Below, piece by piece: positions 28,769-42,086 of a stretch of 42,086 nucleotides of DNA; within the stretch, counting starts at the first letter, position 1; every line of letters begins with the position of its first letter. The DNA lies in assembly GCA_020445335.1 (NCBI GenBank), contig JAGRGU010000085.1, forward strand, positions 1 through 42,086, written 5' to 3'. The stretch is from Gammaproteobacteria bacterium (GTDB lineage: Bacteria > Pseudomonadota > Gammaproteobacteria > Chromatiales > Chromatiaceae). The translations under genes were made by a program, and so were the position numbers. Under the pieces are notes generated by a model, which was given only the letters and a program-made list of their open reading frames with translations, was not told where the DNA came from and searched no databases.

Positions 28769-30211
28769 TCAGAGCCTGGACGCGACCCGCTTCTGCTCGG
28801 AGCTGTGGGCACGCTCGATCTTCTCGAGAATCACCGGCTGCTTTCCACTCCTGCCGGCGTGGCTCAGCGGCAGGCGTCCGCCTGACCAGTGCATGATGCG
28901 GTCGCGCACCTGAATAACCCCCAGCGTCTGCCAGACGGCCTGCGAGGCGACCCGCTCGAGATGCTGCATGGGCGCCACCGAGACGGCCAATAGCAGCGCC
29001 GTGATCAACAGCGATGCGACCAGCGCCGGGATCAGCGCGCCATGCCCGGAGTTCGCTTCAGATACCGGCTCGGCCGTCGGCCGCTCCGGCTCCGCTTCGG
29101 CGGAGGACGGTACGCGGCGGGTCAGCAGCGGAACCATCGGCTCAGCCTCTTCAGGGGCTGTCGCCGCTGCCGCCTGCTGAGTTTGCGGCACCACTTCCGC
29201 GGAGAGCTGCGCGGGGCTGTCGTCACTCTGCCGCGCCTCGTCCGGCGGAGTGGATGCAGACGTGACCGAGGGGTCTGCCACGGCGACCGGTTGCGGCGCC
29301 TGCGTCTCCCGGACGGTCATCGCCGACTGCGCGATGCTGTGCAGATCCTCGGCGTTGAAGCGCTCCTGAGCCAGCAGCGTCGAACGCTCGTCCAGCGCAT
29401 AGTGCTCGGCCCTCAGCTCCTTGACCACCACCTCCACGTCGGCGCTGTCGAGGCGCGACTTCTCTTCCAGAAAGCCGTGCAGCAGCAGGCGGCTGCAGAT
29501 GTGGTTGATGCGTCGCGGCACTCCGTTGCTGACGCGGAAAATGGGTGCGAACAGGTCGGGTTCGAGCGCCGGCCGCCCCTGCCAGCCCGCTTTCCTAAGA
29601 CGATGCAGGATATAGGCGACAAACTCCTCCGGCTTGAGCGGATCCATGTGATAGGCGGCGATCATGCGCTGGTTGAGCTGCTCCAGCTGCGGCGAGGTCA
29701 CCATCTCACGCAACTCCTCCTGCCCCACCAGGAAGATCTGCAGCAGCGGCTGCCCCCCCTCGCGCGCGTTGGTCAGAAGGCGCAGCTCCTCGAGCGCGCT
29801 CAGCCCCAGCCCCTGGGCTTCATCTATGATCAGCAATGAGCGACGGCCCTGCCGGAAATCGCTGCCGAAGCGCTCGGTCAGCCGCTGCAGGATGGTCGAT
29901 TTGTCAGCCTGCTCCAGCGGCAATCCGAATGCCGATGCCACCAGCCTGAGGACATCGTCGGCCTCGACCTGGGCGCTCAACAGCCGCGCCAGACGGTAGC
30001 TCTCCGCTTTCACCTCCGCCACCAGTGCATCGATGAGCGTGGTCTTTCCCGTTCCCGGCGCGCCGGTAATCATCACGAAGCCTTCGCCGCGATGCATCGC
30101 ATAGCGCATGTAGGCCTTGGCCTTGGCAAAGGATCTGTGCGGCAAGCAGAAGACGTGATCCGGGCTCAGACGAAAGGGATCTGCGGTCAAACCATAATAT
30201 TTTCTATACAT
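28769..30211 (-). CDS. ExeA/PEP-CTERM-locus-type AAA ATPase with C-terminal membrane segment
   Basis: A 480-residue protein. Residues 1-270 are an AAA ATPase of the ExeA (GspA)/PEP-CTERM locus type: start MYRKYYGLTADPFRLSPD, Walker A GAPGTGKT (50-57), Walker B LLIIDEAQ (126-133), and the sensor region GVPRRINHICSRLLL. A Ala/Pro/Glu-rich linker follows (about 305-385), then one membrane helix (ALVASLLITALLLAVSVAP, about 395-413) and a basic tail. Relatives energise secretin or pilus assembly, or occur in exopolysaccharide loci. Here no GspB or secretin is next to it; it is divergent from the adaptor/M50/giant-protein genes, so a role in that export path is possible but unproven. Confidence 0.85.
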   Translation of the reverse strand: MYRKYYGLTADPFRLSPDHVFCLPHRSFAKAKAYMRYAMHRGEGFVMITGAPGTGKTTLIDALVAEVKAESYRLARLLSAQVEADDVLRLVASAFGLPLEQADKSTILQRLTERFGSDFRQGRRSLLIIDEAQGLGLSALEELRLLTNAREGGQPLLQIFLVGQEELREMVTSPQLEQLNQRMIAAYHMDPLKPEEFVAYILHRLRKAGWQGRPALEPDLFAPIFRVSNGVPRRINHICSRLLLHGFLEEKSRLDSADVEVVVKELRAEHYALDERSTLLAQERFNAEDLHSIAQSAMTVRETQAPQPVAVADPSVTSASTPPDEARQSDDSPAQLSAEVVPQTQQAAAATAPEEAEPMVPLLTRRVPSSAEAEPERPTAEPVSEANSGHGALIPALVASLLITALLLAVSVAPMQHLERVASQAVWQTLGVIQVRDRIMHWSGGRLPLSHAGRSGKQPVILEKIERAHSSEQKRVASRL

Positions 30212-30332
30212 CTAGTTGCCTGCATGTTGGCTTCCGCTCACTCCCTGACGGCAGTCAGCGCTGGGTTAAACCGCCCCCCCGGACTCTCAACAATGGGCCT
30301 TCGGGTTCGGCATCCGTCCCTGGCCTGCATGA

Positions 30333-30421
30333 CCCTCCCGTGCGGCGAAAGAGCTGAAAAAGCTCGGTGCGATCGCCTACTGTAGCGCTGCGATATCGCC
30401 GTGAGTGCCGCAACGGGAGGG
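30333..30421. repeat. Imperfect 14/15-base inverted repeat, possible structured RNA or small element
   Basis: Left arm CCCTCCCGTGCGGC (30333-30346) pairs with right arm GCCGCAACGGGAGGG (30407-30421) with one unpaired base. Between the arms GAGCT-GAAAA-AGCTC can form a small hairpin, and further pairing is possible between GCGAT and ATCGC. No target-site duplication flanks it. Confidence 0.55.
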
Positions 30422-30490
30422 CCACAACAGCCGTTGAGTGGCACCAAGCAATTTATATGCCTGTCAATAATATGGTTTTATTTCAGCAAC

Positions 30491-30513
30491 TTGGAATGGG
30501 AAGAAAGTTCCAA
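30491..30513. promoter_or_regulatory. TTGGAA-N11-TTCCAA palindrome upstream of the export genes
   Basis: A perfect 6-bp inverted repeat spaced by 11 bases, in an AT-rich stretch about 230 bases before the GAF-adaptor start. Symmetry and spacing suit a dimeric repressor or activator site; the regulator is unknown. Confidence 0.35.
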
Positions 30514-30740
30514 TCAGGAATAGTGTAAAAAATGTGAACCAGTACCGCGGAATCTGTTTCCCACCCGGCCGGCGCGAGCTGAAAAGCGAGCACCGGTGAC
30601 AGTGCATTTGATAACGGCCGGATTCGACTGACTCGGGCTTCGATCGAACCCGCTTCTTGTCCATCTCCATGGGTTCAAGGTTTTTAAATCCTGCGCCGAT
30701 ATATGTGCGAGTCAGTCTCTGTGAGCCGATCACCCACCCA

Positions 30741-32471
30741 ATGAACCAAGCACTACTGCAATCCTGGCTGTCGCTGCAGTGCCAGGCCATGCCCGGGGCG
30801 GTCTCCGCCTGCGCCAGAGTCCACCCGCGTGGAGAGGAGGCCGAGAGCCTCAGCGTGGTCTGGCCAGTCAACGGCAGCACGGACGAAGAGTTGCGGAAGC
30901 TGCTCGATATGGCCGAGCAGAGCGACGGCGCGGTGACCGCAACGCCGCGCGCGCGCGCCGACGGTAAAGGTCCGTTGCTGCGCATCGCCCATCCGATCGA
31001 TTCCGATGGAGAGATCAAAGGCGCGATCGCCATCTCCCTGGAGCGGATTCCCGATTCGCAGCACCGCTCGGTGCTGCGTCTGATCGAATGGGGCAACAGC
31101 TGGCTCGGACTGCTGCAGCATCAGAGCGGCAACAACGAGCAGGAGCAGCTGCTGGCCGGCGCGATCCAGTGCGTGCTGCAGGCCCAGTCGCTGCATCACG
31201 CGGCGATCGCGCTTTGCGGATATCTGGCACACCGCTGCGGCTACGAGCGGGTCGCGCTGGGGTTGAAGCGACAGCGCGGCTATCAACTGCTGGCGCTCTC
31301 CGACAGCGCGCAGATACCGGCCCGCAGCGAACTGGCCAGGCTGTTGCGCTCGGCGATGCAGGAGGCGGAGACGCGCGCCCCGCTGCTGCACTGGCCCGCC
31401 GACGGCGACCCGCCGGCGCACCACGCCCTGGCCGAGACGGAGAGAGACAGCGCGGTGGTGACACTGCTGCTGCCGGCCGGCAGCGGACACTTCGGCGCCC
31501 TCTGCTGCGAGTCGCAGCGGGCCGAACCGCACTCCGCGGCAGAGCTGAACCAGTTGAAGGGTCTGGCGACCCATCTCGGCCCGTTGCTGGCACTGAAGAG
31601 AGCGGGAGAGAGACGTCTGTCGATATCCGGGCAGCGGCAGCAGGAGACCCGCCCGCACGCCGCGCTGTTACGCCGCGCGCTCATCGCCTTTCTGCTGCTC
31701 GCCGCCGGGCTATATCTCGCCGGCGGCGACCGCTACCGGGTCGGTGGGCCCGCCGAGCTGGAAGGGGCGCTGCACCGGGCGCTGATCGCGCCGTTCGACG
31801 GCTACATCGCCAGCGCCCACGCGCGCGCCGGCGAGACCGTCGCCCGGGGCACCCTGCTGGCCGAGCTGGAGGACCGCGAACTCAAGCTCGAGCTGCGCCA
31901 GCTACAGGGGGAACAAAGCGAACTGGAGAAGCAGTACCGCCAGGCGCTGGCCCGGCTCGAGCACGCTCAGGCGCGCATCTTCGAGGCGCAGATCGCGCAG
32001 GCCGAGGCGCGCATCGAGCTGCTACAGCAGCAGCTCGAGCGGGTCAGACTGCGTGCCCCCTTCGACGGCGTGGTGGTGGCCGGCGATCTGAGCCGCTCGC
32101 TCGGCAAGCCGGTCAAACGCGGCGAGGTGCTGCTTGAGGTGGCACCGCTCGCCGACTACCGCGTCGCGATCGAAGTGGCGGGGCGCGACATAGCCGAGAT
32201 CGACCCGGGCGAACATGGCACCCTGCTGCTCGCGGCGCGTCCGGAGCGGCCGCTGCGGTTCACTGTCAGCAATATCACGCGCATGCCGGGGGGGAGTGAA
32301 AACGCCGGCCGCTTCCGCGTCGAGGCGCGTCTGCTCGACGGTGACGAGGATCTGCGTCCGGGACTGCGCGGCGTCGCCAAAGTCGATGCCGGCGAGCGCA
32401 GCCGGTTCTGGATCTGGAGCCACGAGATCTCCGACTGGATGCGCTACCGGCTCTGGGCCTGGCTGCCCTGA
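30741..32471 (+). CDS. GAF-domain protein fused to a HlyD-type membrane adaptor
   Basis: A 576-residue fusion. Residues about 1-125 are an alpha/beta segment and about 135-290 resemble a GAF domain (AGAIQCVLQAQSLHHAAIALCGYLA, then GHFGALCCES). A single membrane helix follows at 310-328 (RALIAFLLLAAGLYLAGG). The outer part has a split lipoyl/barrel-sandwich (APFDGYIASAHARAGETVARG at 350-370; APFDGVVVAGDL at 439-450) around a coiled coil (375-435), and a beta-barrel (EIDPGEHGTLLLAARPE) as in periplasmic adaptors. A cytoplasmic sensor domain on an adaptor is unusual. I start at ATG 30741; the frame extends 28 codons upstream without features. The M50 gene follows after nine bases. Confidence 0.85.
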   Translation: MNQALLQSWLSLQCQAMPGAVSACARVHPRGEEAESLSVVWPVNGSTDEELRKLLDMAEQSDGAVTATPRARADGKGPLLRIAHPIDSDGEIKGAIAISLERIPDSQHRSVLRLIEWGNSWLGLLQHQSGNNEQEQLLAGAIQCVLQAQSLHHAAIALCGYLAHRCGYERVALGLKRQRGYQLLALSDSAQIPARSELARLLRSAMQEAETRAPLLHWPADGDPPAHHALAETERDSAVVTLLLPAGSGHFGALCCESQRAEPHSAAELNQLKGLATHLGPLLALKRAGERRLSISGQRQQETRPHAALLRRALIAFLLLAAGLYLAGGDRYRVGGPAELEGALHRALIAPFDGYIASAHARAGETVARGTLLAELEDRELKLELRQLQGEQSELEKQYRQALARLEHAQARIFEAQIAQAEARIELLQQQLERVRLRAPFDGVVVAGDLSRSLGKPVKRGEVLLEVAPLADYRVAIEVAGRDIAEIDPGEHGTLLLAARPERPLRFTVSNITRMPGGSENAGRFRVEARLLDGDEDLRPGLRGVAKVDAGERSRFWIWSHEISDWMRYRLWAWLP

Positions 32472-32480
32472 GGTGAGGGT

Positions 32481-34628
32481 ATGACGCGACCGGCCATCGA
32501 CGACGACTGGCAAAAGCTGGGGCAGCTGCGTCCGCGGCTGCGCTCGCATACCGCCTGGCAGCGCATGCCGTTTCGCGGCATCGACTGGTACCTGCTGCAC
32601 GATCGTGCCAGCGGCCGTCACTACCACTTCAGCCAATCCGCCTACCGGCTGCTTCGCCTGCTCGACGGCGAGACCAGCCTGGAGCAGGCGTTGGCGCAGC
32701 TCGCCGCACCGGCGCAGCCGGACCGGGCGATGCGCCGCGAGGCGCTGAATCTGCTGCTGCGGCTGCGCTCGGCGGACCTGCTGTGGCAGGCCGAAGGGAG
32801 CGACAGCGAGCGGCTCTACCGGCAGTGGCGGCAACAGAGCGGCAAGGGTCGCCTGGCGCAGTTGACACGGCCGCTGGCGGTGCGACTGCCGCTGTTCGAC
32901 CCGGACCGCCTGTTGCAGCGCACGCTGCCGCTGGTCAGGCCGCTGTTTCACTGGAGCGCACTGTTGCTCTGGCTGGCGGTCGTCACGCTCGCCGGCGTGT
33001 TGGCGCTGCAGCAGGGCGAGGCGCTGTTGCTGCACGGCGAAAGCCGGCTGCTCGACCCGGCCAACCTGCTGCTGCTGTGGTTCAGCTACCCGCTGGTCAA
33101 GGGACTGCACGAACTCGGCCACGCCTACGCCATCCGCCACTGGGGCGGCAAGGTTCACGAGCTCGGCATCATGCTGCTGGTGTTCGTGCCCGTGCCCTAC
33201 GTCGAGGCCTCCTCGGCGACCGCCTTCCCACAGAAGTGGCGCCGCGTGCTGGTCGGCGCCGCCGGCATCATGGTCGAACTGCTGCTGGCGGCGCTCGGCC
33301 TGTTCGTCTGGCTGTCGGTGCAGCCGGGCATGGTGCGCGATCTGGCCTTCGACATCATGCTGGTCGGCGGGCTCTCGGCGCTGCTCTTCAACGGCAATCC
33401 GCTGCTCAAGTTCGACGGCTACTACGTGCTCGCCGATCTGCTCGAGATCCCCAACCTCGCCAGCCGCGCGCAGCGCTACTACGGCTATCTGGCGCAGCGC
33501 TACCTGCTCGGACTGGCACAGGCGGAGTCACCGCTGATCGCCCCCGGGGAGCGTGGCTGGTTTCTCTGCTACGGGCTCGCTTCCTTCTGTTACCGGCTCG
33601 TCATCGGCGTCAGCATCGCCCTCTACGTGGCCGGCAAGTTCTTCATCGTCGGCACGCTGCTGGCGACCTGGGTGGTACTGTCGCAGCTGCTGCTGCCACT
33701 CTACCGGCTGCTGCGCTACCTGCTCGCCGCCGAGGTGCTGCGCGGGCGCCGTTCGCGTGGCTGGACGGTGGCCGCGGCCACGTTGGCGGCCGCCGCGATC
33801 CTGCTCGCCACGCCCCTCCCCTCCAATACCCTGGCCGAGGGTGTGATCCGACTGCCCGAGCGGGCCATCGTCAGGTCGGCCGGCTCCGGCGTGGTGGTCG
33901 AGCTGCTGCAGCCCGACGACAGCCGGGTCGCGGTGGGCACGCCGTTGCTGCGGTTGCGCAACGACCCGCTGCAGAGCGAAGCCAGGGTGCTGGCGGCGCG
34001 GCAGCGGGAGTTGACCGCGCGCCTGCAGGCGGCGCGCATGCAGGACCGGGTGGCCAGCGCGATCCTGCAGGAGCAGCTCGACGAGCTGTCTTCGGAGATC
34101 GCCGAGAAGCAGCGCCAGCTCGACGCGCTGGTCGTCGTCAGCCCGGCGAGCGGCGAACTTGAGCTGCTCCGCCCCGCAGACCTGGAGGGGCGCTTCGCCG
34201 AGAAGGGGCAGCTGCTGGGCGCGATCCACCAACCGGGAGCAGTGGCCAGCGCCAGCGTCGTCGTCGCCCAGGCGGACGCCATCCGCGTACGCCATGACAC
34301 CCGCGCGGTGGCCGCGCGCTACCCGGGCGTGGCCGGCAGCGAGCAGCGGGTCCGTCTGCTGGCGGACACCCCCTCCGGCTCCTACCGCCTGCCGAGCGCG
34401 TTGCTCGGCACCCTGCGGGACGGCCGCATCGCGATCGACGCGCGCGACCCCACCGGCGTCACCACGCTCGATCCGGTGTTTCAGTACGAGATCGAACTGC
34501 CCCCCTCCGCGCGACGCCCGCCGCCCGGATCGCGCATCCAGGTGCGCTTCGAGCACACACCGGAGACGCTCGCCAGCCGCTGGTACCGCTCCGCGCGCCA
34601 ACTGCTGCTCGCCCGCCTGGGTGTCTAG
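32481..34628 (+). CDS. PqqD-like / M50 zinc metallopeptidase / lipoyl-domain fusion membrane protein
   Basis: A 715-residue membrane protein of the putative peptide zinc metalloprotease type (YydH-like, site-2 protease clan). Residues 15-103 resemble a PqqD-like winged-helix module (GRHYHFSQSAYRLLRLLDGE). Helices at about 155-175 and 193-208 precede HELGH (210-214), and the third metal ligand is likely Asp312 in NPLLKFDGYYVLADLLEIPN. More helices run to about 445, then a HlyD-like part: a lipoyl half (VRSAGSGVVVELLQPDDSRV), coiled coil (495-550) and the second half (VVSPASGELELLRP). Catalytic ligands are intact. It has a strong GAGGTGAGG binding site and follows the GAF-adaptor closely. Likely cleaves or threads an exported substrate; inference only. 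Confidence 0.88.
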   Translation: MTRPAIDDDWQKLGQLRPRLRSHTAWQRMPFRGIDWYLLHDRASGRHYHFSQSAYRLLRLLDGETSLEQALAQLAAPAQPDRAMRREALNLLLRLRSADLLWQAEGSDSERLYRQWRQQSGKGRLAQLTRPLAVRLPLFDPDRLLQRTLPLVRPLFHWSALLLWLAVVTLAGVLALQQGEALLLHGESRLLDPANLLLLWFSYPLVKGLHELGHAYAIRHWGGKVHELGIMLLVFVPVPYVEASSATAFPQKWRRVLVGAAGIMVELLLAALGLFVWLSVQPGMVRDLAFDIMLVGGLSALLFNGNPLLKFDGYYVLADLLEIPNLASRAQRYYGYLAQRYLLGLAQAESPLIAPGERGWFLCYGLASFCYRLVIGVSIALYVAGKFFIVGTLLATWVVLSQLLLPLYRLLRYLLAAEVLRGRRSRGWTVAAATLAAAAILLATPLPSNTLAEGVIRLPERAIVRSAGSGVVVELLQPDDSRVAVGTPLLRLRNDPLQSEARVLAARQRELTARLQAARMQDRVASAILQEQLDELSSEIAEKQRQLDALVVVSPASGELELLRPADLEGRFAEKGQLLGAIHQPGAVASASVVVAQADAIRVRHDTRAVAARYPGVAGSEQRVRLLADTPSGSYRLPSALLGTLRDGRIAIDARDPTGVTTLDPVFQYEIELPPSARRPPPGSRIQVRFEHTPETLASRWYRSARQLLLARLGV

Positions 34629-34681
34629 CGCCCGCGCCGAAAGCAAAAACCGGCGGCGAAAAATCGTCTGATTCGCTATTA

Positions 34682-34706
34682 CCGATTGATCTTGTGGTTC
34701 AATCGG
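34682..34706. promoter_or_regulatory. 8-bp hairpin ahead of the third export gene
   Basis: CCGATTGA, nine bases and TCAATCGG form a perfect stem in the 186-base gap between the M50 gene and the next adaptor. No T-run follows, so it is more likely an operator or an mRNA-processing or stability hairpin than a terminator. Confidence 0.4.
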
Positions 34707-34814
34707 CGACGGCACGCTCACTGCGACAGCAACTCTTCGGAATCGCTACAGTTTTCCGGTCGCTCGCCGAAAAAGAGGGAAGCGAATTCACACCCGTTTC
34801 CGAGAACAGACGAC

Positions 34815-35708
34815 ATGCGTAGCAAAAGCCAGACAATCCGTTCCCTCTCCCTTCTGCCGCTGCTGCTGGGGTGCGGCATGAACGCCCTGGCGGCTGGCGA
34901 AGCCAAGGGATTCGACTGCGTCATCGTCCCCTCCGCCATCGTCGGTGTCGGCGCCGCGGTGCCGGGCGTACTGGAGCAGGTCAACGCCGACCGCAGCGAC
35001 CGGGTCGGCAGGAACCAGCTGCTGGCCAGCCTGGAATCGGAGGTGGAACGGGTCGAGCGCAACCTGGCGCAGATGCGCGCCGAAACCCAGGCCGCGGTCA
35101 AACTGCGCGAGGTGAGCCTGCTGTTCGACAAGCGCAGCCTGCAACGGGTCAAGACCCTGCACCGCGACAAGGTGGTCTCGATCGACGAGCGCGACCAGGC
35201 GGAGCGCGAAGCCAATCTCGCCATCTGGCGGCTGCAGGACGCCAAGGATCTGCTGCGCCAGCGCCAGCTCGAGCTGCAGCGCTCGCAAGAGGTGTTGAAA
35301 AGGCGCGAGATCCGCAGCCCGATAGACGGCGTCGTCATCCAGCGCCTGCACCACCCCGGCGAGTTCGTCGAGGACGAGGCGATTCTGCGCATCGCTCAAC
35401 TCGACCCGCTCTACGTCGAAGCGATCGTGCCGATGGCCGAATTCGGCAAGATCCGGCCGGGGATGCGCGCCAGCGTGGTATCGGAGGTGACCCAGAGCGC
35501 AGCGCTCAGCGCCGAGGTGGCGGCGGTCGACGGCATGGGCGACGCCGCCAGCGGCACCTTCGGCGTGCGCCTGCGGCTGCCCAATCCCGACTACACCATC
35601 GCCGCCGGCGTCAAATGCAGGCTGACCATCGAGCAGGTGCAGGTGACGGCCACGGCCACCCTCTCCGCCCCGGCGCTGGCGATGGACGCTGCCGCCAGCC
35701 GCGACTGA
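34815..35708 (+). CDS. HlyD/RND-type periplasmic adaptor, possible lipoprotein
   Basis: A 297-residue membrane fusion protein. The N-terminus (LSLLPLLLGCGMNALA) is a signal sequence; LLGC with Cys20 could be a lipobox, or cleavage may be after NALA. It then has a lipoyl half (VGAAVPGVLEQVNADRSDRV), a helical hairpin (about 75-165) with LFDKRSLQRVKTLHRDKVVS, the second half (IRSPIDGVVIQRLHHPGEFV) and a beta-barrel (LDPLYVEAIVPMAEFGKIRPG). It lacks the usual C-terminal membrane-proximal domain. I start at ATG 34815, just before the signal sequence; the ribosome binding site is weak. It stands 53 bases before the giant gene, so joint expression is likely. Confidence 0.88.
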   Translation: MRSKSQTIRSLSLLPLLLGCGMNALAAGEAKGFDCVIVPSAIVGVGAAVPGVLEQVNADRSDRVGRNQLLASLESEVERVERNLAQMRAETQAAVKLREVSLLFDKRSLQRVKTLHRDKVVSIDERDQAEREANLAIWRLQDAKDLLRQRQLELQRSQEVLKRREIRSPIDGVVIQRLHHPGEFVEDEAILRIAQLDPLYVEAIVPMAEFGKIRPGMRASVVSEVTQSAALSAEVAAVDGMGDAASGTFGVRLRLPNPDYTIAAGVKCRLTIEQVQVTATATLSAPALAMDAAASRD

Positions 35709-35761
35709 AGCGGCACCGGCGACAAACAACCAGAGCGTCGATCAGACGGCCACCCCCGCAG

Positions 35762-38700
35762 ATGTCGAGCAAGCGCAACCACCGCCAAACCTCCAGGCTG
35801 TCGATGGAGCTGATGGAGCCGCGCATGCTGCTCTCGGCCGACGCGCTGGCGCTGGCCGGGCTGCCCGGTGTCGACGGCGGCGAGGACGACGCACCCTGGG
35901 AGCAGGCAGCGGTCGAGGTGGCGGACCTGACCGTAAGCGCGCCGCAGCAGGATATAGCGGCCGATACGCCGCTGGCGCTGGATCTCTTCTCTGACGACCC
36001 GGCCGCGGCGGATGACGCCAGCGTGCTGTCGCTGCTCGGTGAAACCGGAGAGCGCGGTTCCGCCGGGGAGCTGCTGTTCGTCGACAGTCGCGTCGACGAC
36101 TATCAGGGCCTGATCGAACAGATCCGCGCCGAGCGCGCCGGGGTCGAGCTGCAGATATACCTGCTCGACGCCGGGCGCGACGGCGTACAGCAGATTGGCG
36201 AGAGCCTCGCGCTTCACGGCGGGGTCGACGCGCTGCACATCATTTCGCACGGCGCCGGCGGCGGCCTGCAGCTCGGCGCCAGCTGGCTCGACGGCGAACT
36301 GCTTGATGCCCGCGCCGACGAGTTCGGTGCCTGGTCGGAAAATCTCGGCGAAGGGGCCGACCTGCTGCTCTACGGCTGCGATCTGGCGGCCGATGCCGAG
36401 GGTCGTGCGCTGGTCGACGCGCTGGCGCAATTGACCGGCACCGACGTCGCCGCCTCCGACGACGCCACCGGTCACGCCGCGCTCGGCGGCGACTGGGATC
36501 TGGAGTACCGCTCCGGCACACTGGAGACGACCCCGTTCGGCGCACGGTTGCAGCCGCACTGGTACGCCACCCTCGACATCAGCAGCGGCCTGATACTGCA
36601 CAACAGCTTCGACAGCGATGCGACGGATGCCAGTGGCAACGGCTACGACGGCACGCTCAGCAACGGCGCGCTGATCGATACCAACGGCGCGACCAACATG
36701 ATCGGTGCCGGCAAGCTGAGCCTCGACGGTGCCGACGACTTCGTCGATCTGAGCAGCCACGTCGGCAATTTCAAAAACGTCGGCGAGGGCACCATCGCCG
36801 CCTGGGTCTACCACAACGCCTCCAGCTTCACCACCGTCTTCGAGCTCTCCGACTCGGGCGACGACGACTCACGCGTGGTGCTCGGTGTCTCTTCCAACGG
36901 CACCCTCGGCTTCGGCGTCTTCAGCGGCAACAGCAGGTACATAGACCTGGAGACCGAATCCGGGCTGGTGGCGAAGAACAGCTGGACCCACATCGCGGTC
37001 ACCGTCGACAGCGGTGGCAACAAGCTCTACGTCAACGGTGCGCAGGTCACCACCAACCTCGACTACATCGACGGCAGCGCCGCCTCCACCGAATTCATCG
37101 ACGACGTCAGCAAACTCGACTACATGGTCTGGGGGCGCGATCTCAACAAAGGCGGTTACGGTGAGGAGTACCAAGGCTTCATCGACGACGGCCGGGTCTA
37201 CGACCGCGCGCTGTCGGCGGCCGATATCCTGGAACTCTACAGCTATGGCAACTCGCTGGTCACCGAGGAGATCTCCAGCGACGGCGCGGGCAGCGCCAGG
37301 GCGGTGGCGATAAACGCCAGCGGCGAGCAGGTGGTGGTCTGGTCGAAAGCGTGGCAAGACGGCGACGGCTGGGGCGTCTACGCGCAGCGCTACGACAACG
37401 ACGGCAACGCGCTGGGCGCCACAATTCTGGTCAACCAGACCACGGCCGGCGATCAGCGCCACGCCTCGGTCGGCATCGACGCCGGCGGCGACTTCGTCGT
37501 CAGCTGGAGCGGCTACGGCCAGGACGGCACCGCCAGCAGCGTCTACGCACGCCAGTTCAACGCCGACGGCAGCGCCGCCGGGGGTGAGTTCCGCGTCAAC
37601 ACCGAAAACAGCGGCGCGCAGTCCGACGCCTCGCTCGACGTCGCCGACGACGGCAGTTTCATCGTCGTCTGGGAGGGACAGGGACCCGGCGACGACCAGG
37701 GCGTCTTCTTTCGCCGTTTCAACGACGACGGCTCGGCGATGGACGCCAACGAGATCATCGCCCACACCGCCACCGATGGCGGCACCAGCGAGAAGGATCC
37801 GGTGGTGGCCTGGCAGGCCGACGGCAAATTCGTCATCGCCTGGGAGGAGGAGTCGGGCAACAAGGCCTACTTCCAGCGCTTCGGCGCAGACGGCACCATG
37901 GCCGGCGCCAAGACACAGATCGACAGCGGCCTCTCCACCACCTCCGGTCTGAGCATCGACGCCAACGCCTCGGGCGCCTTCGCCATCGCCTACAAGGAAG
38001 AGGTGACTCTGCCGAAGATCTACGCCCGCGCTTTCGATGCCGACGGCGGCAACATCTTCACCGCCGGCAACTGGCTCGGCGCCTGGGCCGGCATCGGCAC
38101 CTCCGGTTCGTTGAACCCCTCGGTGGCGATGACCGATGCGGGCGAGGTGCTGATCGCCTACCAGACCACCGCCGATGGCGGCGATATCAAACTGCAGCAG
38201 CTCAACGCCAACGGCTCCATTGCCGGTGCGACGACTGTGCTGGTCGCGGACGTCGGCGACCAGGCGATGCCGGCGATCGCCGCGTTGGGCACCGACACCT
38301 ACGCCGTCGCCTGGAACGACGCCAGCGGCGTCGTCACAGCGGCGGCGACGGTAACCATCAACAGCGCGCCGCTGCTGGCCGACGCCGACCCGACGCTGAC
38401 TTCCATCGTCGTCAACGACTTCGACAGCGCCGGCGACAGCGTCGCCGCGATCGTCGTCGACGGCTCGATCAGCGACGCCGACGGCGCGACTGAGTCGATT
38501 GCGGTCATCGCAGTCGACGACAGCAACGGCAGCTGGCAGTACTCGAGCGACGGCGGCGGCAGCTGGAGCAACGTCGACGACGGTTCGCTCGGCGCCGACC
38601 ACGCGCTGCTGCTGGCTGCCGGCGACCGCTTGCGCTTCGTCCCCGACAGCCACTTCCAGGGCAGTGCCAGCCTCACCTTCCGCGCCTGGGACGGCAGCAG

Positions 38701-41700
38701 CGGCAGCGCCGGCGACTACGCCGACAGCGGTGCGGGCGGCGGCAGCTCGGCCTTCTCCAGCGCCAGCGACATTGCCACGATCGCGGTTCTCCCCGCCGAC
38801 ACCGACGGCGACGGTCTGTGGGATCATCGCGAAGACGCCAACGGCGACGGCGACTACGACCCGGCGACCAGCCCCGGACCCGACAGCGACGGCGACGGCA
38901 CACCGAACTGGCTCGACAGCGACGACGACGACGATGGCACCCCGACCAGCGCCGAAAATGCCGACCCCGACGGCGACGGCGACCCGCGCGACGCCGTCGA
39001 CTCCGACCACGACGGCCAGCCCGACTGGCTCGATCTGCCGTTGAGCGTGGCGACCGACGGTATCGTCGCTGCCACCCAAAAGCTCTCCGCTGCAACCGTG
39101 GCCGGACTCGCCACCGTGCTGGACGACGAAGACAGGTTCGGCGCCAGCGTCGCCTCGATCGGCGATATCGACGGCGACGGCGTGGTCGACGTCGCCGTGG
39201 GCGCGCGCAGCGACGACGACGGTGGCAGCAACCGCGGCGCGGTCCATATCCTCTTCCTGAACGCCGACGGCACGGTCAAGGCACAGCAGAAGATCTCCGA
39301 CACCACCGGCGGGCTGAGCGCGGTCCTGGACGACGATGACGCCTTCGGCCGCGCGCTGGCCGGCATCGGCGATATCGACGGCGACGGCATCAACGATATC
39401 GCCGTCGGCGCCAACTACGACGACGACGGCGGCAACGACCGCGGCGCCGTCTATATCCTGTTTCTGAACAGCGACGGCACTGTCAGGGCGGAGCAGAAGA
39501 TCTCCGCCAGCGCCGGCGGAATGAGCGATCCGCTCTCGGACAACGATAAGTTCGGCCGCGCGCTGGCCGGCATCGGCGATATCGACGGTGACGGCATCAA
39601 CGATATAGCCGTCGGCGTTGAGACCGATGACGATGGCGGTACCAACCACGGCGCGGTCTATCTGCTGATGCTGAACGCCGACGGTACGGTCAAGAGCGAA
39701 CAGAAGATCTCGGACGGCAGCGGCGGACTGACCGCCGTGCTCGACGACGGCGACAGATTCGGCGTCAGCGTCGCCGGCCTCGGCGACCTCGACGGCGACG
39801 GCAACCGGGATATCGCCGTGGGATCGCTCTACGATGGCGGCAGCGACCGCGGCGCCGTGCATATCCTGTTCCTGAACGGCGACGGTACGGTCAGAGCCGA
39901 GCAGAAGATCTCGGGACTGAGCGGCGGGCTGAGTGCCGCGCTGGATGACGGCGATGCGTTCGGCGTCAGCGTAGTCGCCGTCGGCGACGCGAACGGCGAC
40001 GGCACGGTCGATATTCTGGTCGGCGCCGACGCCGACGACGACGGCGGCAGCAACCAGGGTGCAGCCTACCTGCTTTTCCTCAACCCCGACGGCACGGTCA
40101 AGGGGGAGCAGAAGCTCTCCTCCGGCGCCGGCGGGCTCTCGGCCAACCTCGACAACGACGACTGGTTCGGCGTTTCGGCCACGGGGCTCGGCGACCTGGA
40201 CGGAGACGGCGTCGTCGACCTGCTGATCGGCGCCGAGCAGGACGACGACGGCGGCATCGATCGCGGTGCGCTCTATCTGCTCAGCCTGCAGGCGGAGAAC
40301 ATCAACAGCGCACCGACCCTGACCGCCACCGCCACCAACCCGACCTTCACCGAAGGCGGTGCCGCGGTGAATCCGTTCAGCGGCAGCTCCGCCAGCACCG
40401 TCGACGCAGGACAGCAGTTCATCCGCATGACGCTGACGGTGAGCAACGTCAACGATGGCGGCGCGGAGAGACTCACGCTCGGCGGCGCCGCCATTTTTCT
40501 GACCGATGGCGCCACCGCCTCGACCGCGCAGTTCGATCTCGGCGTCAGCGTAAGCGGCACCACCGCCACCGTCACACTCTCGCTGAACGCGCTCGACAGC
40601 GCTGAGCTGCAGACGCTGATCGACGGCATGAGCTACCGCAACTACAGTGACAATCCCGACAGCTCCGACCGGGTGGTGACGCTGACCGGGTTGAGCGACT
40701 CCGGCGGCGGTGACGACAGCTCGACGCCGAATATCGCCTCAACGATCAGCGTACAGGGGAGCAACGACGCGCCGACGCTGAGCGGAGGTCCGTTCAGCCT
40801 GGGTTCCACCACCACCGACAACAGCAGCAGCGGCGTGCAGGTCGCCACCATCCTTGCAGGCCTGACCGCGGCCGATGTCGATGGCGACACGCTGGGCATC
40901 GCCGTCAGCGCGCTCTCCGGCAACAACCTCTGGCAATACTCGACCGACTCCAGCGACGGCCTCGACGGCAGCTGGCAGAGTTTCGGCGCGGTCGCCGACA
41001 ACAGCGCGCTGCTGCTCGACCCGAACGCCTGGATCCGCTACCAGCCCGACGGCGTCAATGCCGAGAACCCGGCCGTCACCTTCCACGCCTGGGACCAGAG
41101 CAGCGGCACCGCCTCCACTGGCGGCTCGCCGAGCTACGGCGACCCTGGCAGCGGCAGCGCCTTCTCGAGCGGCAGCGCCCAGGCCGGCATCTCCGTGACG
41201 CTGAGCAACAACCCGCCCAGCGGCAGCGTCACCATCGACAACATCTCGCCGACGCAGGGTGACATGCTGACAGCCGCCAACACGCTGGCGGACGCCGACG
41301 GCATAGCCAGCGCCATCAGCTATCAATGGCTGCGCGACGGTGTCGCCATCGCCGGCGCCAACGGCGTCAGTTACACCACCACCCAGGCTGACGTCGGCAC
41401 GCTGATCGCGGTCACCGCCAGCTATACCGACACGCCGGGAAATCTTGAGAGCATGACCAGCACCGCGACCGCCGCGGTGGTCAACGCCAATGATCCGGGC
41501 GTGGTCACGATCGACGATACCTCGCCCGAGCAGGGAGGGACGCTCAACGCCAGCGTATCCGACACCGACGGTGCCAGCGGCGCGATCAGCTACCAGTGGT
41601 ACCGCAACGGCATACCCATCGCCGGCGCCACCGGCGCCAGCTACACCACCTACCAGATCGACGTCGGCAGGGCGATCACCGTTTCGGCAACCTACAGCGA

Positions 41701-42086
41701 CGACCTCGGCAGCGCCGAGTCACCGCTCAGCGCCGCCACCGACCCGGTCGCCAACGTCAACGACGCCGGTCTGATTACGATCCACGACACCACCCCGACC
41801 CAGGGGCAGATGCTGATCGCGAGTATCTTCGATATCGACGGCGCCAGCGGACCGATCGACTACCAGTGGTACCGCGACGGCGTCGCCATCGCCGGCGCCA
41901 CCGGCGACAACCACACCACCACCCAGGCCGACGTCGGCGCGGTCATCTCGGTCGCCGCCAGCTACAGCGACAACCTCGGCAGCGCCGAATCCCTGCTCAG
42001 CGCCGCCACCGCCGCAGTCACCAACGTCAACGATGCCGGCAGCGTCACGATCGACGACACCACCCCGACCCAGGGGCAGACGCTCA
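35762..42086 (+). CDS. Giant repetitive surface protein with LEPR-XLL motif, DUF4347, LamG, FG-GAP and Ig-like repeats (3' end outside window)
   Basis: Over 2,108 residues and still open at the right edge. Order: a LEPR-XLL-like N-terminal motif (MEPRMLLSA at 18-26); DUF4347 (about 103-262, with HIISHGAGGGLQLG and LLLYGCDLA); a LamG/concanavalin-like domain (about 277-495); beta repeats of the type VYARQFNADGS (about 500-860); a cadherin-like segment; an Asp-rich calcium-binding stretch (about 1013-1092, DTDGDGLWD); six FG-GAP repeats (about 1119-1515); two more cadherin-like units; and 90-residue Ig-like repeats from about 1822. There is no classical signal peptide, suggesting export by a dedicated one-step system. 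It is probably a cell-surface adhesin. One frame holds throughout, with no frameshift. The ATG at 35762 has no strong ribosome binding site. Confidence 0.9.
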   Translation, partial: MSSKRNHRQTSRLSMELMEPRMLLSADALALAGLPGVDGGEDDAPWEQAAVEVADLTVSAPQQDIAADTPLALDLFSDDPAAADDASVLSLLGETGERGSAGELLFVDSRVDDYQGLIEQIRAERAGVELQIYLLDAGRDGVQQIGESLALHGGVDALHIISHGAGGGLQLGASWLDGELLDARADEFGAWSENLGEGADLLLYGCDLAADAEGRALVDALAQLTGTDVAASDDATGHAALGGDWDLEYRSGTLETTPFGARLQPHWYATLDISSGLILHNSFDSDATDASGNGYDGTLSNGALIDTNGATNMIGAGKLSLDGADDFVDLSSHVGNFKNVGEGTIAAWVYHNASSFTTVFELSDSGDDDSRVVLGVSSNGTLGFGVFSGNSRYIDLETESGLVAKNSWTHIAVTVDSGGNKLYVNGAQVTTNLDYIDGSAASTEFIDDVSKLDYMVWGRDLNKGGYGEEYQGFIDDGRVYDRALSAADILELYSYGNSLVTEEISSDGAGSARAVAINASGEQVVVWSKAWQDGDGWGVYAQRYDNDGNALGATILVNQTTAGDQRHASVGIDAGGDFVVSWSGYGQDGTASSVYARQFNADGSAAGGEFRVNTENSGAQSDASLDVADDGSFIVVWEGQGPGDDQGVFFRRFNDDGSAMDANEIIAHTATDGGTSEKDPVVAWQADGKFVIAWEEESGNKAYFQRFGADGTMAGAKTQIDSGLSTTSGLSIDANASGAFAIAYKEEVTLPKIYARAFDADGGNIFTAGNWLGAWAGIGTSGSLNPSVAMTDAGEVLIAYQTTADGGDIKLQQLNANGSIAGATTVLVADVGDQAMPAIAALGTDTYAVAWNDASGVVTAAATVTINSAPLLADADPTLTSIVVNDFDSAGDSVAAIVVDGSISDADGATESIAVIAVDDSNGSWQYSSDGGGSWSNVDDGSLGADHALLLAAGDRLRFVPDSHFQGSASLTFRAWDGSSGSAGDYADSGAGGGSSAFSSASDIATIAVLPADTDGDGLWDHREDANGDGDYDPATSPGPDSDGDGTPNWLDSDDDDDGTPTSAENADPDGDGDPRDAVDSDHDGQPDWLDLPLSVATDGIVAATQKLSAATVAGLATVLDDEDRFGASVASIGDIDGDGVVDVAVGARSDDDGGSNRGAVHILFLNADGTVKAQQKISDTTGGLSAVLDDDDAFGRALAGIGDIDGDGINDIAVGANYDDDGGNDRGAVYILFLNSDGTVRAEQKISASAGGMSDPLSDNDKFGRALAGIGDIDGDGINDIAVGVETDDDGGTNHGAVYLLMLNADGTVKSEQKISDGSGGLTAVLDDGDRFGVSVAGLGDLDGDGNRDIAVGSLYDGGSDRGAVHILFLNGDGTVRAEQKISGLSGGLSAALDDGDAFGVSVVAVGDANGDGTVDILVGADADDDGGSNQGAAYLLFLNPDGTVKGEQKLSSGAGGLSANLDNDDWFGVSATGLGDLDGDGVVDLLIGAEQDDDGGIDRGALYLLSLQAENINSAPTLTATATNPTFTEGGAAVNPFSGSSASTVDAGQQFIRMTLTVSNVNDGGAERLTLGGAAIFLTDGATASTAQFDLGVSVSGTTATVTLSLNALDSAELQTLIDGMSYRNYSDNPDSSDRVVTLTGLSDSGGGDDSSTPNIASTISVQGSNDAPTLSGGPFSLGSTTTDNSSSGVQVATILAGLTAADVDGDTLGIAVSALSGNNLWQYSTDSSDGLDGSWQSFGAVADNSALLLDPNAWIRYQPDGVNAENPAVTFHAWDQSSGTASTGGSPSYGDPGSGSAFSSGSAQAGISVTLSNNPPSGSVTIDNISPTQGDMLTAANTLADADGIASAISYQWLRDGVAIAGANGVSYTTTQADVGTLIAVTASYTDTPGNLESMTSTATAAVVNANDPGVVTIDDTSPEQGGTLNASVSDTDGASGAISYQWYRNGIPIAGATGASYTTYQIDVGRAITVSATYSDDLGSAESPLSAATDPVANVNDAGLITIHDTTPTQGQMLIASIFDIDGASGPIDYQWYRDGVAIAGATGDNHTTTQADVGAVISVAASYSDNLGSAESLLSAATAAVTNVNDAGSVTIDDTTPTQGQTL
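39116..40310 (+). repeat. Six tandem FG-GAP (integrin-type) repeats
   Basis: Repeat units begin at 39116, 39323, 39530, 39737, 39938 and 40145, a period of 207 bases except one of 201 bases (two codons lost in the fourth unit). Each encodes a DxDxDG calcium loop (GDIDGDGVVDVAVGA) followed by GAV-ILFLN-DGTV-QKIS. Six or seven such blades would close a beta-propeller. Confidence 0.88.
41225..42086 (+). repeat. Tandem Ig-like repeats of about 90 residues
   Basis: Units aligned on the V/I before TID start at 41228, 41504, 41774 and 42044: 92, 90 and 90 residues, then a partial fourth. Each has TIDDTTPTQGQ, YQWYRDGVAIAGATG, TQADVG and a closing NVNDAG. The array continues past the window end. Confidence 0.88.

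Follow-up and report, generated by a model that had tools for sequence, protein, structure and literature searches.

How does a bacterium move a giant surface protein across its envelope when the gene stands next to periplasmic adaptors and a membrane peptidase, with no ABC exporter in the locus? The stretch of DNA analysed here raises this question. This window is the entire contig C152 (42,086 bp) of a Gammaproteobacteria bacterium whose genome (G000) is 89% complete. Four genes follow one another on the plus strand, encoding an adaptor with a GAF-like part (GAF-HlyD, 30741-32471), a fusion of a PqqD-like domain, an M50 peptidase and an adaptor domain (referred to as M50, 32481-34628), a small HlyD adaptor (34815-35708) and a giant protein with an LEPR-XLL tag and a DUF4347 domain (from 35762 to past 42086). 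The gaps between these genes measure 9, 186 and 53 bases and an ATG is present at each likely start; judging from this layout, the four genes likely form a single transcript. The original prediction had described such a collinear run into the giant, and every gene it named was found on the strand it gave. We consider it probable that the three genes preceding the giant encode a dedicated, ABC-free export and processing machine, with the LEPR-XLL giant as its probable cargo.

The giant protein gene (35762-42086, plus strand) shares its start with the ortholog in G515, a genome of the same genus. Since the window is the whole contig, the region of the giant beyond 42086 is unreadable in G000; the 2108 visible codons include LamG and FG-GAP repeats. 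The LEPR-XLL tag, a likely export leader, lies near the N-terminus (MELMEPRMLLSAD region, 35801-35866, plus strand) and scored above the cut-off of 17 for the NF012209 model (21.9 bits in the protein scan and 27.2 bits in the genome scan). The first 120 residues contain no hydrophobic segment, which bears out the earlier statement that the giant lacks a classical signal peptide. Comparison of 42 distinct LEPR N-termini, collected by a pattern that already fixes part of the motif, gave the consensus E-x-L-E-P-R-[IL]-L-L-S-A-D. Lysine and arginine make up approximately 25% of the stretch preceding the motif, and aspartate and glutamate 9%. A 15-residue segment with a mean hydropathy of at least 1.8, such as the hydrophobic core of a signal peptide, is absent from all 42 N-termini. 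In sequence, the LEPR-XLL tag is unlike a Sec signal. Open frames with this tag had a median length of 4273 codons and a maximum of 19,427 in the phylum sample described below. The giant of the window also contains DUF4347 (36071-36568, plus strand; E 1.4e-51), which models with a caspase fold and retains an invariant histidine and cysteine in 26 rows (the window and 25 relatives). Based on this model, DUF4347 is predicted to be a caspase-like cysteine protease of clan CD.

The M50 fusion protein comprises 715 residues (32481-34628, plus strand). It scored 28.8 bits against Peptidase_M50 (cut-off 27.2), whereas the PqqD match of 21.4 bits was slightly below the cut-off of 23.4. In a structure model of this protein (pLDDT 85.5), fold matches were mainly localised to residues 18-103 and 445-702. 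The N-terminal region (residues 16-103; 32526-32789, plus strand) adopts in this model the PqqD-like winged-helix fold that characterises RRE domains, which are known from peptide maturation. This leader-binding-type domain is predicted to bind a leader and to lie on the cytoplasmic side of the membrane. The short leader conserved on the adjoining giant suits the RRE-like fold modelled for the machine, and we infer that the two would bind. The zinc site of the peptidase is composed of an HExxH motif (residues 210-214; 33108-33122, plus strand) and the partner residue D312 (33414-33416, plus strand); H210, E211, H214 and D312 are unchanged in 22 rows of relatives. The C-terminal region (residues 445-702; 33813-34586, plus strand) matches adaptor folds and models as a periplasmic adaptor, consistent with the adaptor-like domain that had been proposed for this protein.

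The RRE fold, which is typical of peptide maturation, also brings up an alternative in which the substrate matured or exported by the M50 set would be a small modified peptide (RiPP), the position of the set beside the giant being secondary. The resemblance of M50 to the daptide M50 protease model NF041824 points in the same direction, but its score of 154.7 bits is under the cut-off of 300 for this model, no precursor or further RiPP enzyme was noticed among the listed open reading frames (ORFs; at least 90 residues only), and the linkage of M50 to giants, described below, is far above chance. We regard this alternative as very improbable.

The GAF-HlyD gene (plus strand) lies in an ORF that opens at 30657 and ends at 32471, with the ATG at 30741 as the likely start based on comparison with G515. 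The product matches HlyD_3 (E 6e-21) and HlyD_D23 and is predicted to be composed of a cytoplasmic GAF-like part, a single transmembrane segment at approximately ORF residues 336-354 and a periplasmic HlyD part. The HlyD half of the GAF-adaptor fusion proposed earlier is therefore clear, whereas Pfam did not detect the GAF half in the copy from the window (E up to 0.1), although it did so in 17 of the 22 family members (E up to 0.01). The small HlyD adaptor gene (plus strand; ORF from 34686, ATG at 34815 likely, end at 35708) matches RND_mfp (109 bits, cut-off 94.9), HlyD_D23 and HlyD_3, and its product begins with an N-terminal hydrophobic stretch resembling the start of a signal peptide. The window accordingly contains the HlyD-type adaptor expected of type I secretion. 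An ABC exporter had been reported missing from the window, and our two-motif scan of its ORFs likewise retrieved no ABC-like ORF, while recovering five of five known ABC controls.

To place this arrangement in a wider context, we surveyed a class sample of 229 genomes (M50 counted at E <=1e-30) and a phylum sample of 299 genomes (M50 counted at E <=1e-70); the two samples overlap, with G000, G107 and G224 among their LEPR genomes. In the class sample, LEPR-XLL (NF012209) was identified in 17 genomes, M50 in 27 and both in 15 (p 1.8e-14), so that M50 accompanies the tag in 15 of 17 LEPR genomes versus 12 of 212 others. The corresponding numbers for the phylum sample were 39, 84 and 38 (p 1.9e-23), with M50 in 38 of 39 LEPR genomes versus 46 of 260 others. 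The association extended to the genus level, where all 22 LEPR genera among 154 carry M50 (p 4e-15), and the NF012209 scan returned no LEPR-XLL match in 14 control genomes. The two features are also physically linked: 9 of 21 LEPR sites in the class sample and 25 of 52 in the phylum sample, many on short contigs, lie within 15 kb of M50 versus 0.2 and 1.3 expected, respectively. These expectations are rough and assume 4.2-Mb genomes; the M50 list behind the linkage counts comprised stronger matches only, with one placeholder entry for G411. Based on this sequence evidence, LEPR-XLL giants are likely cargo of the M50 set. Co-occurrence and linkage thus support the core of the original prediction, namely that the giant would have an export set of its own in a locus that lacks an ABC pump. 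The further idea of that prediction, that M50 may take the place of the pump or process the substrate, stays a conjecture.

The same gene set recurs elsewhere with additional partners. A contig scan confirmed 581 loci, the best 80 of which are the named loci used here; 58 of these have at least 3 kb on either side of M50. ORFs were re-called with overlaps allowed; neighbours were counted up to 6 kb from M50, and giants anywhere in the locus. Carriers among the loci include the cultivable Neptuniibacter caesariensis, Marinobacterium mangrovicola and Seongchinamella unica. Among these 58 loci, GAF-HlyD was present in all 58, a SecA-like ATPase in 54, HlyD in 51, DUF3467 in 19, SapC in 13 and a TolC-like gene in 6, and 42 of the 58 hold an unassigned ORF of at least 1000 residues. 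The SecA-like gene, a neighbour in most relatives, lay outside what the original prediction could see. SapC genes are found, for example, at L096:12294-13154, L198:3457-4215 and L181:2904-3683, and a DUF3467 gene at L130:7631-8053. ABC-like ORFs occurred in 5 of the 80 named loci and in none within 4 kb of M50. Genome G053 contains the whole set in a single array of SapC, OEP, HlyD, an LEPR giant (3177 residues, in which Pfam finds no family), GAF-HlyD, M50 and the SecA-like gene; OEP genes adjoin LEPR giants also in G106, G224 and G233. Genes for sensor kinases or GGDEF/EAL proteins are frequent neighbours of the sets (L169:10709-15454, L035:15330-16835 and L038:5721-8846 by Pfam; L183:1753-3261 by eye), and these neighbours point to control by c-di-GMP.

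The SecA-like proteins of these loci have a median length of 666 residues. One scanned copy contains SecA_DEAD, the preprotein cross-linking domain and the SecA P-loop domain, and the ATPase motifs are kept in 15 rows. Aligned with a solved SecA chain (E 6e-203), the family profile stops at residue 608, which indicates that these proteins are without the C-terminal part. In the class sample, M50 was present in all 11 genomes that carry a SecA-like gene of this type. This gene set has been described before: Kamneva, Poudel and Ward (2015; PMC4452313) reported it around a secondary SecA that lost its wing-scaffold domain, proposed SecA as the ATPase and M50 as a possible pore and, in the passages covered here, called the broader role of the locus completely unknown. 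That paper names no cargo, and LEPR, DUF4347, giant, RTX and PqqD do not appear in its main text; the only other open paper listed with its title phrase is PMC5313232. The suggestion of M50 as a pore was thus already in print in 2015. As far as the excerpts of the 2015 paper extend, its SecA_DEAD/HlyD/M50/GAF locus resembles the window in having GAF-HlyD, M50 and HlyD genes side by side, and the present gene family in having OEP in some loci, no ABC and a shortened SecA. It differs from the window in that the secondary SecA_DEAD is part of the locus, whereas none is present beside the window's set. The window is therefore best described as a SecA-less relative of that locus and not as a full member.

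The same-genus genome G515 allowed us to follow the locus past the point where the window ends. Its 48.9-kb contig carries GAF-HlyD, M50 (62% identical), HlyD and a complete LEPR giant of 1765 residues with DUF4347 and cadherin-like repeats, beyond which lie a hybrid histidine kinase and then a GGDEF/EAL regulator. An ABC and TolC set just past the giant had been named as the finding that would speak against dedicated export; on this contig we identified no ABC-like ORF, no OEP match and no SecA, and the kinase and regulator occupy the place beyond the giant.

Several observations weigh against dedicated export by the M50 set. The window locus lacks a TolC gene, and the one OEP protein found in G000 is unlinked. 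A fold search of the M50 model returned no match over the membrane body that bears on a pore. In the phylum sample, 46 of 84 M50 genomes are without an LEPR match, which implies either that other cargo exists too or that the LEPR model misses variants. Conversely, G076, G213 and G429 have LEPR but no strong M50; in G429, a SapC gene directly precedes the LEPR giant. The association of the M50 cluster with giants, which the original prediction had made a matter for a genome survey, holds as linkage far above rough chance, although these M50-only genomes stand against it. Also on this side is an LssB-type ABC above cut-off in 5 of 11 set-bearing genomes (G233, G404, G503, G515 and G523). G000 itself has, away from the window's contig, an ABC match that scores 489.9 bits although truncated. 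Some LEPR giants, such as that of L130, carry RTX repeats, which are characteristic of type I cargo, and in G503 a PrtD-type ABC (694.7 bits, cut-off 510) and a type I HlyD stop 2.7 kb short of an LEPR giant.

These last four observations favour a different explanation, in which the giant leaves by type I secretion: the adaptors would pair with an ordinary ABC exporter and TolC from other parts of the genome, and M50 would contribute maturation alone. G503 is the sole case found that favours it by position (pair at L204:202-6123, with an LEPR giant of 9292 codons). A subtilisin-like gene faces this PrtD/HlyD pair, however, and its product may be the cargo of the pair; the LssB-type ABC of the same genome lies approximately 73 kb from M50. 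In the single-contig genomes G053 and G106, the best LssB matches reached 306 and 316 bits, whereas the PrtD of G503 scores 376 in that search. Five matching stretches from these genomes (two from G053 and three from G106, the stronger matches, scanned over the matching stretch) fitted MsbA-type models best, and none reached a type I cut-off. Taken with the scarcity of ABC-like ORFs at the named loci and their absence from the G515 contig, these results make type I export of the giant unlikely.

The missing SecA in the window raises the related question of what would drive export there. In a tree of 113 M50 rows, 92 have SecA beside M50, a share that, like the 54 of 58 above, reflects the choice of best-matching loci and not a population rate. 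The window falls in a clade of seven rows, none of which has SecA next to M50 (SH-aLRT 97), in a tree built by a quick method and with several long branches. A single origin of the SecA-less state is doubtful, as the tree needs 8 label changes, 6 of them on starred branches. One member of the clade, G081, carries a SecA-like gene on a different contig, adjoining genes that by eye resemble the kinase and regulator pair seen in G515 and the last part of a repeat protein. A hidden accessory SecA was looked for in G000, again within the limits of a genome 89% complete; none was found, and only a housekeeping-type SecA is present, which is a further point against the proposed machine. The same holds for G515, which has housekeeping-type SecA only. 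G404 (two contigs, 100% complete) combines GAF-HlyD, M50, HlyD and an LEPR giant, likewise with housekeeping-type SecA only. Overall, the SecA-like gene is missing in 6 of the 15 class-sample genomes with LEPR and M50, which indicates that it is common but not obligatory. We favour a variant in the window that is driven by housekeeping SecA or by an unlinked motor.

The occurrence of the set and LEPR giants with housekeeping SecA only, in G404, G515, G206 and others, is also what would be expected if the giant crossed the inner membrane via housekeeping SecA/SecYEG and the M50/HlyD/TolC set acted later, in processing and outer-membrane passage. On the other hand, the 42 LEPR N-termini are without a hydrophobic signal-peptide core, a cytoplasmic location is predicted for the RRE-like domain and most relatives retain a shortened SecA-like gene beside M50. 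We hold this route to be improbable.

Returning to dedicated export by the M50 set, we propose the following sequence of events. From its predicted position on the cytoplasmic side, the RRE domain would capture the LEPR-XLL leader, which is basic and not hydrophobic. The membrane body of M50 would mark the entry into the inner membrane and probably cut off the leader. The adaptor domain of M50, GAF-HlyD and the small HlyD would together span the periplasm as a conduit that leads to a TolC-type channel, and the GAF part would act as a switch. The shortened SecA-like ATPase is the likely motor in most relatives; in the window's clade, housekeeping SecA or an unlinked motor would take its place. 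DUF4347, as a predicted caspase-like protease, may then free the giant or mature it outside the cell. Leader binding, cleavage, pore formation and motor use are inferred here. More tentatively, these elements may amount to a separate secretion system, in which the RRE-M50-adaptor protein picks LEPR-XLL giants, the shortened SecA drives them and HlyD and TolC provide passage with neither ABC nor Sec signal, the window representing a SecA-less branch; we see this as possible but short of an even prospect.

Such a system would overlap only in part with characterised ones. With type I secretion (HlyB-HlyD-TolC; LapB/C/E) it shares HlyD adaptors, TolC-type genes beside some relatives and very large surface cargo. 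Type I cargo features a C-terminal secretion signal, whereas the giants described here have a conserved N-terminal tag and the window locus is without ABC. In the accessory Sec pathway of Gram-positive bacteria (SecA2/SecY2), a second SecA serves very large adhesins, and the SecA-like protein of the relatives, with its preprotein domain, is comparable; the present set, however, is Gram-negative and includes M50 and adaptors, and the second SecA is not found beside the window's giant. Daptide/YydH-type M50 metalloproteases (NF041824, NF058609) likewise combine a leader-binding-like fold with an M50 body, but the window M50 is fused to a periplasmic adaptor, has the giant next door and scores below both cut-offs.

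The remaining genes of the window appear less directly connected to the set. The divergent ATPase (28769-30211, minus strand; one transmembrane segment) is located as had been predicted. It is of the ExeA/XrtA type and matches the XrtA/PEP-CTERM ATPase model TIGR03015, although its score of 300.7 bits misses the cut-off of 324.5. Homologues were present in 3 of the loci searched (L092, L098 and L191, the last more than 20 kb from M50), which makes a role as the motor doubtful; by this distribution the ATPase is probably outside the core set. At L098:276-1994, the homologue is divergent and 1.4 kb before GAF-HlyD, in the same arrangement as in the window, which leaves room for a side role. Upstream of the set, the 17 reading frames scanned resemble ordinary chromosome and include a PAS histidine kinase, two LptF/LptG, an M17 aminopeptidase, parC, parE, thiL, riboflavin genes, a GGDEF protein, nrdR and glyA.

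G000 also contains a second set of GAF-HlyD, M50 (45% identical) and HlyD at L025/L026 (G000:C33:44932-53919). It is followed by a 1059-residue ORF that by eye is like the PAS-GGDEF-EAL sensor of L038, and no giant is present behind it on contig C33. ORFs upstream of this second set (L025:1097-10138; G000:C33:31097-40138) resemble by eye phage-tail or contractile-injection parts. A second LEPR-XLL giant of G000 is located at L050/L051 (G000:C124:56523-65286), with 2921 codons visible before the contig end cuts the gene. In G515, a similarly tagged giant lies behind the second M50 set.

Whereas the gene set has been known since 2015, the likely LEPR cargo, the RRE-like domain, the SecA-less clade and the caspase-like model of DUF4347, a domain of unknown function, are new, as are the two single-contig genomes with the full set in which no type I ABC was found. 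In the open literature, LEPR-XLL turned up in two papers, mentioned in passing in each, and we found there no export route for LEPR-XLL proteins; M50 is absent from the retrieved passages within the first 300,000 characters of a tripartite-pump review (PMC8277102). If correct, our reading would supply the cargo for the SecA/M50/HlyD locus and the export machine for the LEPR-XLL tag, some of whose carriers have open frames among the longest in these genomes. Based on the structure model, it also predicts that an RRE domain would read the start of giant surface proteins.

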